A stretch of DNA of 64,000 bases from Akkermansia muciniphila (lineage in GTDB: Bacteria; Verrucomicrobiota; Verrucomicrobiia; Limisphaerales; BJHT01): the NCBI GenBank assembly GCA_945861535.1, contig CAMAUZ010000041.1, forward strand, positions 1-64,000. Direction: 5' to 3'. This document shows, one piece after another, positions 4,906 through 33,775 of this stretch. Made by a program: the position numbers and the translations under genes. How positions within the stretch are numbered: the stretch's first letter is position 1; every line of letters begins with the position of its first letter. The notes below the pieces were generated by a model. That model was given only the letters and a program-made list of their open reading frames with translations. It was not told the origin of the DNA and did not search any database.

Positions 4906-5079
4906 TTTAGGAGGCCACAGCCAAACTCGTGAGACCGGACCGAGATCGGTCGGGACCCAGCGATCAGTCCACGCCCGAAACTGAGATGACCCTCAGTTTT
5001 TAGCCGCTTCGATTCCGTGGTAACGGGAGAGAAAACCACAGCGAAACGATGAACACAGGGCGGCGGGGCCGCAACCCAC
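4906..5079. other. Short gap before family A copy 1
   Basis: The gap between the DUF1501 stop and the family A hairpin holds AAACCACAGCGAAACGATG, a fragment of the word repeated at 39067-39192. About 30 bases before 5080 are also shared with family A copies 2 and 3, so the element probably starts near 5058. No gene seen. Confidence 0.5.
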
Positions 5080-5208
5080 GGAGCGCGGCTGTGTCCGCCG
5101 AGGACCAGCCGCAGCGGCCCCGAAACCGCGAAGGCACCCGGTGGAATCAGGAGCGTCCCCTGCGCCCAACCCGCTGCGGCTGGTGCTCCGCGCACACAGC
5201 CGCGCTCC
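5080..5208 (+). repeat. Family A hairpin element, copy 1 (36-57-36 nt)
   Basis: Left arm GGAGCGCGGCTGTGTCCGCC... and right arm ...GCACACAGCCGCGCTCC are 36 nt each and pair except at the centre of the stem, where CCGCCGAGG faces GCTCCGCGC. The 57-nt loop is the same length in all three copies and keeps GAA, AGGC, GGAATC and TCC at matching positions. Because the two arms differ at the centre the element has a direction; this copy and copy 3 (33452-33580) are forward, copy 2 (26022-26150) reversed. Similarity extends about 20 bases beyond the right arm (AAATCCTCGC) and about 25 before the left arm. Confidence 0.9.
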
Positions 5209-6916
5209 GGGAGAAATCCTCGCCACGCTCGACCGCTTGTCAGGCGTGGTGGCGGACGATTTGGAGTCGCCGCATCTGGAGTTCAAGCCCTGGATAGATG
5301 CGCGGGCGGATATGCGCGTGGCGATGGAATATGCCGTGTGTTTCGCCAACGCGGAGGGAGGCGTGATCGTCTTCGGCGTCGCCGACAAGACTCGCGGACG
5401 CGCGACGGCGATTCACGGAGCCAAGGGCTACGACCTCGATGTGTGGCGGCGTGGCATTTTCGACGCGACGCGTCCGCACCTGCCGGTGGAGGTCAGCGAA
5501 CTCGCGGTGCCGGAAGGCACGGGGCGGCTGCTGCTCGTGCGGGTGCCTGCCGGGGAGAATCCGCCCTACGGCACGGCGCAGGGCGTTTTCAAACAGCGCA
5601 TCGGGAAGAACTGCATGCCGCTGGATCACGCGTCGTTTCAACGGGGGCGCATCGCATCCGGCGCTCTGGATTGGAGCGGGCAACCGGCGCATGGCGTGCG
5701 GCTGGCCGATCTCGATCCCGTGGAGATGGGACGGGCGCGGGCGATCTTGCGGGGCAAAAACCCAGAGTCAGATTTACTGCGGGCAAATGATGCGGATTTT
5801 CTGAAAGGCTTGGGTGCGATACGCGCCGGGCAGGTGCCGCACACGGGGCTGCTGTTGTTCCGGCAGCCGGAAGTGATCGCGGCGCATTGTCCGCAGGCGC
5901 AGGTGCATTATGTGCATCAGCCGAGCGACACGGCGGCGGCGCGCAACGACCAGTGGCGCGTCGGCCTGCTGCTGGCGCTGGAGCGGATCGAGCAGACGTT
6001 TAGCGGCCCGGCCAATCCCGAGGAGGAATTGTCGGTCGGACTCTTCAAATTGCGCGTGCCGGCTTTCCCGTTGGATTCCGTGCGCGAGGCCGTGCTGAAC
6101 GCACTGACGCACCGCGACTATGCCGATCCCGGCGAGGTGCTGATCCGGCACACGCCGCGCGAGGTGGTGGTGACCAGTCCCGGCGGATTCGTCGGTGGCA
6201 TCACGGTGGAAAATTTTCTCCGGCACGAGCCGGTCGCACGCAACCGCACGCTGGCAGATGCGCTGGTGCGGCTGCGACTGGTCGAGGCGGCAGGCATGGG
6301 CCGACGTCGCATGTGGGTGCAGGCGCTCAGTCTCGGCAAACCCGCGCCGCGTCCCGAATCCGACGGGCATCGGGTGACGCTGCGGCTTTTCAACACCGGG
6401 TGCGACACGGCGATGGCCGGGCTGGTGTCGCGATTGAATCAGGAGGGCCGGGACATCGGATTGGACACGCTGCTCGTGCTCTCGCATCTGCGCGAACACC
6501 CCTACATGGATGCCGACGAGGCGGCGCGGTTGTTGAGGGTGGATTCGGATGAAGCGCGGCGGTTGTTGGACGATTTGGGCCCTTCCGGCCTGGGGCTTTT
6601 GGAGCGGAAGTCGCACACCCGTTCGGCTACTTTCCATCTCACGAAAGGCATCGCTCGGGAACTGCTGGGTAAAGCGGCCAATACGAAAACGCGTGGACTG
6701 AATCCGATCCGCTACGCCGAAATGGTGCGGGAATATCTGCACGACCACCCGAGCATCTCGAACCGGGAAGTCCGGGAATTGCTGGGGCTGGGCGAATCGC
6801 CAACGGCGCAGGTGGAGGCGTCACGCTATTTGAAAAAATGGTCCGGGCCCGCGGGTTTCCTCACCGCCGATGGGAACGGGGCAAAGCGTTGCTACCGGCT
6901 CAAGGAGGCATCTTAG
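5141..6916 (+). CDS. Schlafen-like AlbA_2 ATP-binding transcriptional regulator
   Basis: About 591 residues in the longest form. Residues 35-165 form a Schlafen AlbA_2 domain (LESPHLEFKPW, then FANAEGGVIVFGVADKTRG, and GVFKQRIGKN). Residues about 330-420 match the HATPase_c_4-type C-terminal region (LDSVREAVLNALTHRDYADPG, VVVTSPGGF, VEAAGMGRRRM). The last 150 residues look like winged-helix modules (DADEAARLLRVDSDEARRLL; SNREVRELLGLG). Such proteins are usually called putative DNA-binding or ATP-binding regulators; no target is known. The start is uncertain: GTG 5141 lies in the loop of family A copy 1, and residues up to about 28 are repeat-encoded. GTG near 5249 would give a start free of repeat. 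The original 5' end may have been replaced by the element. Confidence 0.78.
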   Translation: MESGASPAPNPLRLVLRAHSRAPGEILATLDRLSGVVADDLESPHLEFKPWIDARADMRVAMEYAVCFANAEGGVIVFGVADKTRGRATAIHGAKGYDLDVWRRGIFDATRPHLPVEVSELAVPEGTGRLLLVRVPAGENPPYGTAQGVFKQRIGKNCMPLDHASFQRGRIASGALDWSGQPAHGVRLADLDPVEMGRARAILRGKNPESDLLRANDADFLKGLGAIRAGQVPHTGLLLFRQPEVIAAHCPQAQVHYVHQPSDTAAARNDQWRVGLLLALERIEQTFSGPANPEEELSVGLFKLRVPAFPLDSVREAVLNALTHRDYADPGEVLIRHTPREVVVTSPGGFVGGITVENFLRHEPVARNRTLADALVRLRLVEAAGMGRRRMWVQALSLGKPAPRPESDGHRVTLRLFNTGCDTAMAGLVSRLNQEGRDIGLDTLLVLSHLREHPYMDADEAARLLRVDSDEARRLLDDLGPSGLGLLERKSHTRSATFHLTKGIARELLGKAANTKTRGLNPIRYAEMVREYLHDHPSISNREVRELLGLGESPTAQVEASRYLKKWSGPAGFLTADGNGAKRCYRLKEAS

Positions 6917-25948: not shown

Positions 25949-26021
25949 AATTTTGATCGCGGGTTAATAGCACACCCAGGCACACAGTTCAAAATACCCG
26001 CGCGCCGCGCCGAGTTTGCCC

Positions 26022-26150
26022 GGAGCGCGGCTGTGTGCGCGGAGCACCAGCCGCAGCGGTTTGGCCCCGTGGGACGCCTCGGATTCCAACCGGTGCCTGC
26101 GGGGATTCGAGGCCGCTGCGGCTGGTCCTCGGCGGACACAGCCGCGCTCC
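26022..26150 (-). repeat. Family A hairpin element, copy 2 (reversed)
   Basis: Exact 36-57-36 layout, reverse orientation relative to copies 1 and 3: the left arm here reads GGAGCGCGGCTGTGTGCGCG..., i.e. the reverse complement of their right arm. The loop, read on the minus strand, aligns position by position with the other two (GAA, AGGC, GGAATC, TCC conserved). About 40 bases beyond the arm also match copy 1 (ATGAAC...GCGGCG...CAAC). It lies between the peroxidase and PQQ genes. Confidence 0.9.
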
Positions 26151-26229
26151 GTGAGTTGTGGCTTCGCCGCTCTGGGTTCATCGATTCCGGCTAGAATCAG
26201 CCTCTGACCACCAACGTCTGCTCCCGCCA

Positions 26230-30637: not shown

Positions 30638-30713
30638 GGGTTGGTAGCTCAGTTGGTAGAGCAGTGCCCTTTTAAGGCATTGGTCCCGGGTTCGAGTCCC
30701 GGCCAACCCACCA
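30638..30713 (+). tRNA. trnK: tRNA-Lys (anticodon TTT)
   Basis: 76 bases including an encoded CCA. Acceptor stem GGGTTGG pairs with CCAACCC; D-arm GCTC...GAGC; anticodon stem GTGCC/GGCAT with loop CTTTTAA, anticodon TTT at 30671-30673; T-arm CCGGGTTCGAGTCCCGG; discriminator A. Reads lysine codons AAA/AAG. Confidence 0.97.
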
Positions 30714-30917
30714 GTTTTGGTTTGCAAGGCGGCCTTCGATTCTCGAGGCGGAATGGCAGCTCCCGTTCCAACCAGTTCACCCGTTTCGCCGGTGGGTGCG
30801 ATCGTTCACCGTTGGATTCCCCGCGCTTCAACAACCGCGCTCGACCCGGAAGTCGCGAGCCGTCCACCGCAGGTGCCCGTGCGATGACTTGATCGCGGAC
30901 CGGCTCGCAGGCACCGA

Positions 30918-32915
30918 TCAGGGTGCCGTGACGTCCACGCGATAGATACGCTGCGGATGCCGCGCATAATCGGTGTCGATGAACTCGGTTTCGCCGCTGG
31001 CGTTGGTGATGATCCCCAGCACGCTCCAGTCGGTCAGGTTCGTCGTCGCGCGAATGGTCCATTGGCTGCCTGGTTCGCCGGTGATGCGCAGCCGGATGCC
31101 GTCGCGCGGCGGCAAGGTGAGTTCCTCTGCTGGCGGCGGTATTTCCAAGGCGCCGCTTTGCAATGCCCCAAAACCCATGGTTTGCGGGCTGGTCAGCGCG
31201 AGCGGGCCGGCGGCGCCCCGGTTGGTGTAAAGCCCCTGCCCCGCCGGACGCAGGGCGAAGGATTCAGAGTAATTCTCCAGCAGGATTTGGCCGCGAACAA
31301 AAGCGCTTTGGTCCGTCAGCTCCACGTGGATCTTCCCATCGCTGCCGAATGCGTAGGTGGCCACAGTGGCATCTGGGTCGGCGTTGGCTGGGCGCCCCGT
31401 TCCGTCCACGCGAAGGTCTCCGCGCATGGTCAAGCCGGCGTCGCTGAACCCCTGCAGGCGGAAGCCGGCTGCGGTAACCAGATACCCATCGTTATCCATC
31501 TGATACACCCCATGCCGGGTGCCGAAGTACTCGCCGTTGGTCGGGTTCCGCACCAAGAAATAGCCGCCGCCAGCGATCGCCAGATTCGCCGGTTCGCCGG
31601 TCCGCCGGAGGGCACCCTGGTGCAGGAAAGTCAACGTCCGGCGGATCGCCAGCAGGTCCTCGGTGAGACTCAATGTTTCCAAGGATCCGGACGCGAGCTT
31701 GTTGCCAAAAATCCCCGCGGCGACGGCCTGCGGCTGCGGTCCGGCATCCGCCGCGTTGGCGTAGAGACCGTGATTGGTGCTCACCAGGCGCTCGGGATGT
31801 TGAAACGAAAACAGCACGATCTGACCGGCCCAGAGGAACGTTTGATCCGTGAAGCTGACCAGCACCCGCCCATCGCTGCCAAAGGCAAAATCGCGCCTGA
31901 CCGCTCCGGAACTCGCGCCCGGCGGACGGGCAGGACCATCAAGGCACACATCGCCGAGAGTCTGCGATGGGATGTCCGTGTACCCTTGCACGCGGAGCCG
32001 GTCATAGGTCACCAGATACCCCCCGGCGTCCACCAGGAACATCCCGGCCCGCGTGGCGAACAACTCGGACGTGTTGGTCTGCCGCACCAAGAAAAACCCC
32101 GGACCGTTGATCCCGAGATCGGTCTGCCGTCCCGTGCGCACGAGCAGTCCCTCCGTCAGCGGCCCGGCTTTCCGGGGGTCCGGATGCAGCGACACCCGCA
32201 GCTCTTCCGGGGTAGAATCGAGCGCCCCGCTGTAGATCGTTCCCAGCCCCGCGCGCCCCGGTTCCCCCCACTCAATCAGCGGCGCGGCCGCCGGCGTCCC
32301 GACGTAAATTTTGCCCGTGACCCGGGTCAGCCGCGGGGAGTCGGCGAACCTGCGCAGCAAGATTTGCCCGCGCGCAAACTCAGTTCCGTCGGAGAGAGTT
32401 ACCCAGATCTTTCCGTCGGGCGTCAGTTTCCACTGGCGAAGATTGGCCCCCGGGGCCGTGCCGGGCGGCTGACCGTTCGCATCCACTTGCAAATCCCCGC
32501 GGATTGAGAGCGCGGCGTCCTGGTAGCCCTGCACCCGCAGTCCCGAGTAGTTCACCAGATAGCCCGCCGAATCCACCCGGAAGTCACCCGCGCGCGACAC
32601 GAACTCCACGCCCGTCTCGGAGTCGCGGAGCACAAACCACCCGGCCCCGTTGATCGCCAGGTCTGTCTGCAAACCGGTGGCCCTGGCGTTGGTCATTCCC
32701 GATGGCAACGGCGGGAGACCCAGCGACCAACCGAATGGCAGCCCATTGCCGAACAAAAAGGCCGAGTCGTCAAAGCCTTGGATAAACTGAACCGGGCCTT
32801 GGAATGGCGCCAAGCGCAGATTCGCAGCGAGCAGTTGCGCGTTGGCCTGTGAAATCAGCGAAACAGCCACGACCAGCGCGGCCAGCCGGCGGCAGAATTG
32901 AGCAAGCAAAGTCAT
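30918..32915 (-). CDS. Exported protein with three flagellar hook/rod (FlgE/FlgG-like) repeats and C-terminal TNLTDW domain
   Basis: 665 residues. Signal peptide (RRLAALVVAVSLISQANA), then three repeats (about 84-240, 265-425, 443-600). Each has the phrases of FlgE/FlgG middle domains: TDLAINGAGWFVLRD (85-98), a SRAGDF/TRAGMF box, GYLV...LRVQGY, then TLSDGTEFARGQILLRRF-like strands matching the distal GQI...F.NP...LY.A..AGP pattern, and SGALDSTPEEL-like ends recalling the C-terminal helix of FlgG. Residues 605-665 form a separate domain with SQWTIRATTNLTDW and HPQRIYRVDV, common at verrucomicrobial C termini. No other flagellar gene is in the window, and the Sec-type signal peptide argues against flagellar export. 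Repeat 3 is closest to the consensus. Function unknown; a surface or filament-like role is a guess. Confidence 0.75.
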   Translation of the reverse strand: MTLLAQFCRRLAALVVAVSLISQANAQLLAANLRLAPFQGPVQFIQGFDDSAFLFGNGLPFGWSLGLPPLPSGMTNARATGLQTDLAINGAGWFVLRDSETGVEFVSRAGDFRVDSAGYLVNYSGLRVQGYQDAALSIRGDLQVDANGQPPGTAPGANLRQWKLTPDGKIWVTLSDGTEFARGQILLRRFADSPRLTRVTGKIYVGTPAAAPLIEWGEPGRAGLGTIYSGALDSTPEELRVSLHPDPRKAGPLTEGLLVRTGRQTDLGINGPGFFLVRQTNTSELFATRAGMFLVDAGGYLVTYDRLRVQGYTDIPSQTLGDVCLDGPARPPGASSGAVRRDFAFGSDGRVLVSFTDQTFLWAGQIVLFSFQHPERLVSTNHGLYANAADAGPQPQAVAAGIFGNKLASGSLETLSLTEDLLAIRRTLTFLHQGALRRTGEPANLAIAGGGYFLVRNPTNGEYFGTRHGVYQMDNDGYLVTAAGFRLQGFSDAGLTMRGDLRVDGTGRPANADPDATVATYAFGSDGKIHVELTDQSAFVRGQILLENYSESFALRPAGQGLYTNRGAAGPLALTSPQTMGFGALQSGALEIPPPAEELTLPPRDGIRLRITGEPGSQWTIRATTNLTDWSVLGIITNASGETEFIDTDYARHPQRIYRVDVTAP

Positions 32916-33775
32916 CCGCCCCTCCGCAGCAACATCGAAGCCAATCGCGGAAATCGCCCCGCCCCGTTTCCAACGCCGGCGTCGAGGTGCTTTCTCCCGG
33001 TCCGATGGGACAATATCGGCCGATTTCAATGGGTTGGCCCCGGAGCCGATCTTCATCGCCCAGTTCTGCTGGCAAATGCTTCCGGCGACGTCCGGGAAGT
33101 TCATTCCGCAGCCGTCCCGCTTGCGCCCCCGAATCAACGGCCCCACAGAGGACCCCTTCCACCCAGCCCACCGCCCTGCCGCCACCCTGGGGCCGGAACC
33201 GTGGTCTTAAAAACAAGCGAGCGCGCCGGGGAAGCTGGCGAGGTATCTCACGAAGAGTTTCTCGCGACGAGGCATTGGTTGTCCACGGATTTGCTGTGCG
33301 GGATGCAGTTCCGCGCCCGCCGTCCGCGACGGAAGACCTTTGCATACCGGGACCACGGGTGGCCCCGCCGCCCGATGTTTTCCGGAGGGAAACACCGTAT
33401 GAACTCACCCGCGGAAACGCCTTGGGTGTCGGCGGCGCAGCCGCAACTCAAGGAGCGCGACTGTGTCCGCCGAGGACCAGCCGCAGCAGCCCCGAAACGT
33501 CGTAGGCGCACATTGAAATCAGAGGCTTCCGGTGCGGTCAACCTGCTGCGGCTGGTGCTCCGCGCACACAGCCGCGCTCCGGGATAAATCCTCGCGCCAC
33601 GCGAGGATTTTGCCGGGTTGTAGTACGAAGAGATGCAAGCAGAGGCGTCCGCGAGCCAGCTTGAACGGCCGGAAAAAATTCCCAGCGAAGCCCGAGAGCC
33701 GCCGGAACTTTCTTGTTGGATGGGGCATCCGCCCCCTCACGTCGGCGGCTGCGAGCGGCGGGGACTGACGGCAGG
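32916..33775. other. Gene-free stretch with family A copy 3
   Basis: About 860 bases upstream of the hook-like gene. The frame of that gene stays open to 33185, but residues there look uncoded (Arg/Gly-rich, no family similarity). Family A copy 3 is at 33452-33580 with extensions. A partial inverse family E word (CCCCTCACGTCGGCGGCTGC) is near 33731. No RNA gene recognised. Confidence 0.6.
33452..33580 (+). repeat. Family A hairpin element, copy 3
   Basis: Same orientation as copy 1. Left arm GGAGCGCGACTGTGTCCGCC..., right arm ...GCGCACACAGCCGCGCTCC, 57-nt loop aligned to copies 1 and 2. The right flank GGGATAAATCCTCGC repeats that of copy 1 (GGGAGAAATCCTCGC) and itself continues into a small CCTCGC/GCGAGG hairpin. 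Confidence 0.9.

Follow-up and report, generated by a model that had tools for sequence, protein, structure and literature searches.

A putatively Sec-exported verrucomicrobial protein built from three flagellar hook D1 domains

Domains of the hook and rod are, to our knowledge, ordinarily encountered only as components of the flagellar axis. The window analyzed here, a stretch of 64,000 nucleotides from an assembly labeled Akkermansia muciniphila, raises the question of what such domains may do elsewhere. A first-pass annotation of the gene at 30918..32915 described a 665-residue protein with a signal peptide and three hook/rod-like repeats, and proposed that the fold had been captured, without a flagellum, for a nonflagellar extracellular role. 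We found no earlier description of such arrays in the literature searched.

RESULTS

The array gene encodes three D1 domains behind a putative Sec-type signal

The array gene lies on the minus strand, starts with an ATG at 32915, and encodes 665 amino acids plus a stop; a Shine-Dalgarno-like GGAGGGG can be read at 32919..32925 (-). The first-pass observation is confirmed: the protein consists of a Sec-type signal, three FlgE D1 domains of full length, and, at its C terminus, a fibronectin type III (FnIII)-like domain. The putative signal peptide (residues 1 to 26; 32838..32915, minus strand) runs from RR through LAALVVAVSLI to SQANA^Q, and both its hydropathy and the AxA-type site (ANA^Q) fit the Sec type. 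The best 11-residue hydropathy is 3.0, compared to 0.30 to 1.42 in 38 FlgE-type controls, and the h-region is signal-like in 11/11 family members (1.8 to 3.1), outside the range of these controls. We infer Sec export, as well as the probable final location of the protein.

An HMM built solely from single-D1 FlgE proteins of the same order recovered all three domains as complete or nearly so: repeat 1 (residues 79 to 234; 32214..32681; independent E value [iE], 1.5e-53), repeat 2 (residues 259 to 424; 31644..32141; iE, 3.5e-40), and repeat 3 (residues 437 to 592; 31140..31607; iE, 8e-56), all on the minus strand. These bounds are near those first proposed (84-240, 265-425, and 443-600). Pfam PF22692 (FlgE/F/G D1) matches three times (E = 6.5e-28) and NCBIfam TIGR03506 matches at E = 3e-65; even the flgF equivalog cutoff of TIGR02490 is passed (183.6 versus 178.5 bits). 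The repeats are 39 to 41% identical to each other and 45 to 47% identical to the D1 of the genome's own FlgE. D1 homology is thus far above chance.

Structure prediction, which the annotation had suggested as a check, agrees. The AlphaFold2 model (alignment A2) has a pLDDT of 75.6, mostly 80 to 94 in repeats 1 and 3, and a pTM of 0.51. Its best Foldseek matches are flagellar axial proteins without exception, and alignment of the model to solved FlgE/FlgG D1 structures gives Z scores of about 20 to 22 (VIA-align Z of 19.9 for repeat 1 to the FlgE D1 of 9wwj, and 21.8 for repeat 3 to FlgE 6k9q). A model of the relative L044 gives fold matches at Z scores of 21.4 to 21.7.

The array protein lacks the parts that make a hook subunit

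Each repeat corresponds to a full D1 of the hook protein FlgE (Salmonella 6jzt/6k9q, Pseudomonas 9wwj, and the genome's own P0002) with the same fold, but the array protein carries three D1 domains per chain and an FnIII-like tail, and its gene lies outside flagellar operons. It also lacks D0 and Dc and has lost a Dc-contact loop, and a Sec-type signal replaces type III export. The distal rod protein FlgG (PF22692/TIGR02488) shares the D1 fold, but FlgG combines a single D1 with D0-Dc and leaves the cell by type III export, and the array protein is nearer FlgE.

PF00460 (N-terminal D0/Dc) and PF06429 (C-terminal D0 helix) are absent from the array protein at E values up to 1, as they are from all nine relatives tested, whereas P0002 has PF00460, PF22692, and PF06429. 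The FlgE N terminus is absent, with the Sec-type signal in its place; export signals of early flagellar subunits have been described (PMC8983047). In Salmonella, D0-Dc provides most of what holds the hook tube together; contacts between D1 domains are loose, and a loop at the D1 tip (about residues 328 to 332) touches the Dc of a neighbor (PMC6769732). K203, G205, and N207 of the genome's own FlgE align with Salmonella FlgE residues 328, 330, and 332 and hardly vary among the 22 FlgE rows. In the secreted repeats, K, G, and N are kept in only 3/29, 7/29, and 1/29 cases, whereas the remaining invariant columns average 20.5 (p = 0.0026). Judged from these alignments, the secreted repeats have retained fold residues and lost hook-assembly residues.

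That the protein is nevertheless a genuine axial subunit, hook or rod, that uses flagellar type III export is therefore extremely improbable: its D1 homology to FlgE speaks for it, but the missing D0 contradicts it, and the absence of Dc, the Sec-type signal in place of the FlgE N terminus, the vanished contact loop, and the separate normal FlgE in the genome also argue against it. By sequence criteria, the array protein is not a hook subunit. The missing D0 parts for export and polymerization, the Sec-type signal, and the location outside flagellar operons lead us to conclude that the D1 fold has probably been recruited to a different function beyond the inner membrane. This partly supports the capture for a nonflagellar extracellular role that was originally proposed; a filament, one of the roles then considered, is unlikely because the polymerizing D0-Dc part is gone.

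A linker strand is predicted to complete the C-terminal domain

The C-terminal domain (residues 600 to 665, TNLTDW...RIYRV; 30921..31118, minus strand) is recognized by structure matches and by matches within the genome. The TNLTDW type named in the annotation has 12 other matches there (E ≤ 0.01), the longest of the open frames reaching 6931 amino acids. The array protein has the same C-terminal domain as long secreted-type Verrucomicrobiota proteins (TNLTDW...RFYR), but here it is fused to hook domains and predicted to be completed by a linker strand. We give the tail no family name because its Z scores against FnIII/Ig-like domains, about 5 to 7, are too low. A sorting role for this domain finds no support, since relatives in genomes G179 and G178 carry the same domain type in the middle of the chain.

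Since the aligned range of the tail begins near residue 236, the strand between repeats 1 and 2 (residues 236 to 244; 32184..32210, minus strand), seen in the models and marked by a conserved RV in alignment A1, seems to complete the FnIII-like domain. In the model led by L044, which is ∼25% identical to the array protein, the tail is likewise completed, by residues from 226. Docking of this strand into the C-terminal domain is a prediction rather than independently proven, because both models share alignment rows.

The genome has flagellar genes, and the array gene lies apart from them

The statement that the window contains no visible flagellar gene stands, but the broader claim of a protein without a flagellum does not: the 7.9-Mb genome has FlhA beside a normal 281-amino-acid FlgE (P0002) on contig C12 and FlgF, FlgG, FlgA, FlgI, FlgK, and FlgL on contig C62. 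The annotation had named a full flagellar operon elsewhere, with the array protein as a normal part, as evidence against its reading; there are flagellar genes elsewhere, but the array gene is outside their operons, on a different contig, flanked by tRNA-Lys and khpB-yidC. Among relatives, we found no conserved gene neighborhood around arrays and no conserved flagellar neighbors.

The array gene is absent from G001, the one congener searched. DNA identity to this genome stops at window position 30719, at the 3′ end of tRNA-Lys, and resumes at khpB (33776); the G001 counterparts of the two flanks are on different contigs, with other genes. The tRNA-Lys gene itself (30638-30713) ends almost exactly at this stop, and in G001 a 1367-amino-acid open frame follows. 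A tRNA-associated island was considered and set aside: since the G001 flanks are on separate contigs and other carriers have no tRNA next to the gene, we treat the boundary as a synteny break. The region also contains a dispersed repeat of ∼170 to 200 bases with inverted internal halves (33431-33630), with copies at 5059-5228 and 25990-26170. The window copies are 82 to 85% identical, and G001 contains many.

Multi-D1 proteins are rare, patchy, and probably of several origins

In a set of 320 genomes from the order, multi-D1 proteins behind signal-like N termini are encoded by eleven besides the one studied here. The window's plan of three D1 domains and an FnIII-like tail recurs in seven of them (G138, G069, G119, G232, G242, G231, and G180); the G180 array is cut by a contig end, so that its N terminus lies outside the available sequence, and that of G231 is interrupted by an in-frame TGA. 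The G130 array is truncated, running into other sequence after two repeats; no third repeat was found downstream, where a different reading frame follows. G179 and G178 have secreted-type D1-FnIII-D1 proteins (L090:6935-8326 and L093:4994-6394). G203 has four FlgG-type D1 domains behind a lipobox, LGGC (L091:6929-9016, plus strand; TIGR02488 total E = 7.8e-118); the best match in the order of this lipoprotein-like protein is the genome's own FlgG (45%), and we detected no counterpart in the order's other genomes.

A first contig scan with the single array protein as the query recovered no relative. Across 388 genomes sampled phylum-wide (E ≤ 1e-30), only single-D1 matches were found apart from the window's own, and among 122 D1-containing open frames in additional loci there was no multi-D1 protein outside Verrucomicrobiota; diverged arrays could be missed in either search. 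The array family is rare and patchy in the order. At L046:4309-6341 (minus strand), the G119 array gene has two prepilin-like open frames ([24 protein letters not shown]) as neighbors. Some FlgE proteins of the order (L049, L050, and L053) have long central insertions with repeated AHGFTTG-like segments, giving 381 to 558 amino acids versus the usual 270 to 300.

When 54 D1 domains are placed in a tree, repeats from different genera tend to group by position. Repeat 1 of the array protein groups with those of G130 and G242 (96/76; inner pair, 98/82), and repeat 2 of G242 with those of G180, G232, and G231 (99/99); in the genus of G069, G138, and G119, repeats also group by position, except for the misplaced repeat 1 of G119. 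This position-wise grouping fits one old triplication. The repeats of G179 and G178 nest with the FlgE of their respective lineage (98/91 and 99/88), which fits a separate birth of these arrays, and the G203 lipoprotein would be a third. How many births there were is uncertain, given the weakness of many inner branches and the long branches of some repeats. By direct reading, the linker retains a trace of the FlgE segment preceding D1 (HQGALRRTG in the array, TQGPLARTG in FlgE).

In most relatives, frames stay open across 630 to 712 codons at 25 to 40% identity. Between relatives, dN/dS by the NG86 method is about 0.16 to 0.44, with dS near saturation, and YN00 estimates were mostly defeated by saturation; the values are consistent with constraint on the protein sequence.

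Arrays co-occur with flagellar genes

Across the order, 132/320 genomes have FlhA, compared to 9/12 carriers (Fisher p = 0.017). Among high-quality genomes the numbers are 65/154 and 7/7 (Fisher p = 0.002), and at the genus level 56/118 and 6/7 (p = 0.04). These p values are optimistic because genomes are related and incomplete. Broken copies occur in two of the three carriers without detected FlhA (G130 and G231, whose genomes are also less complete) and in none of the nine others (p = 0.045). The co-occurrence suggests that the role of the array may depend on a flagellum.

DISCUSSION

How could hook domains have left the hook? In the mechanism we propose, a resident flgE would have been duplicated in tandem. 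The D0/Dc segments, which carry type III export and polymerization, would have disappeared, and a Sec signal peptide and, at the C terminus, an FnIII-like domain would have been added. Sec would then export an array of three D1 beta-domains for which hook-like polymerization would be impossible. The D1 fold would be retained as a stiff module, with the hook-assembly surface released and other surfaces evolving fast, and the strand between repeats 1 and 2 would dock in the FnIII-like domain, pinning the array into a compact shape.

On balance, we lean toward the array protein being a Sec-exported, nonpolymerizing, nonaxial scaffold or binding protein of the surface or periplasm, made of retired hook domains and possibly linked to the flagellum; the binding role is what we infer rather than observe. 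The rarity and patchiness of the family, its absence from G001, and the co-occurrence with FlhA (7/7 versus 65/154) count against a scaffold. The main rival is that the Sec-exported D1 array acts on the cell's own flagellum from the periplasm or the outside; it might, for instance, line the exit of the rod or hook, cover the hook, or compete for partners that bind the hook. We regard such an accessory role as rather unlikely, even though all seven high-quality carriers have FlhA, broken copies are confined to genomes without detected FlhA, and the arrays derive from FlgE at least twice and from FlgG once. They are not linked to flagellar operons, fewer than one-tenth of the order's flagellated genomes carry one, and the repeats, only 45 to 47% identical to the resident FlgE D1, diverge far faster. 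This divergence, together with the lost D1-to-Dc contact loop, makes mimicry of the hook lattice doubtful.

Patchy presence, absence from a congener, two broken copies, and long branches could also suggest an evolutionary relic, a set of little-expressed, decaying pieces of a duplicated flgE. This is improbable given the long open frames of strongly diverged relatives, a signal peptide kept throughout, conserved repeat order and linkers, and dN/dS well below 1.

Returning to the scaffold or binding protein that we prefer, its wider history can be outlined only tentatively, and we would put it somewhat below an even chance: within a single verrucomicrobial order, flgE on at least two occasions and flgG on one would have shed D0/Dc, been multiplied, and acquired a signal peptide or lipobox. 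The outcome would be a previously undescribed class of proteins of the envelope or surface that is kept mainly where a flagellum exists. Automatic naming of its members as "flagellar hook protein" or "FlgF" would inflate flagellar gene counts. The family may serve as a natural experiment that separates the residues of the D1 fold from those of hook assembly. If D1 has repeatedly been separated from the segments for export and assembly and secreted through Sec, the family would illustrate how components of a molecular machine can be put to new use.
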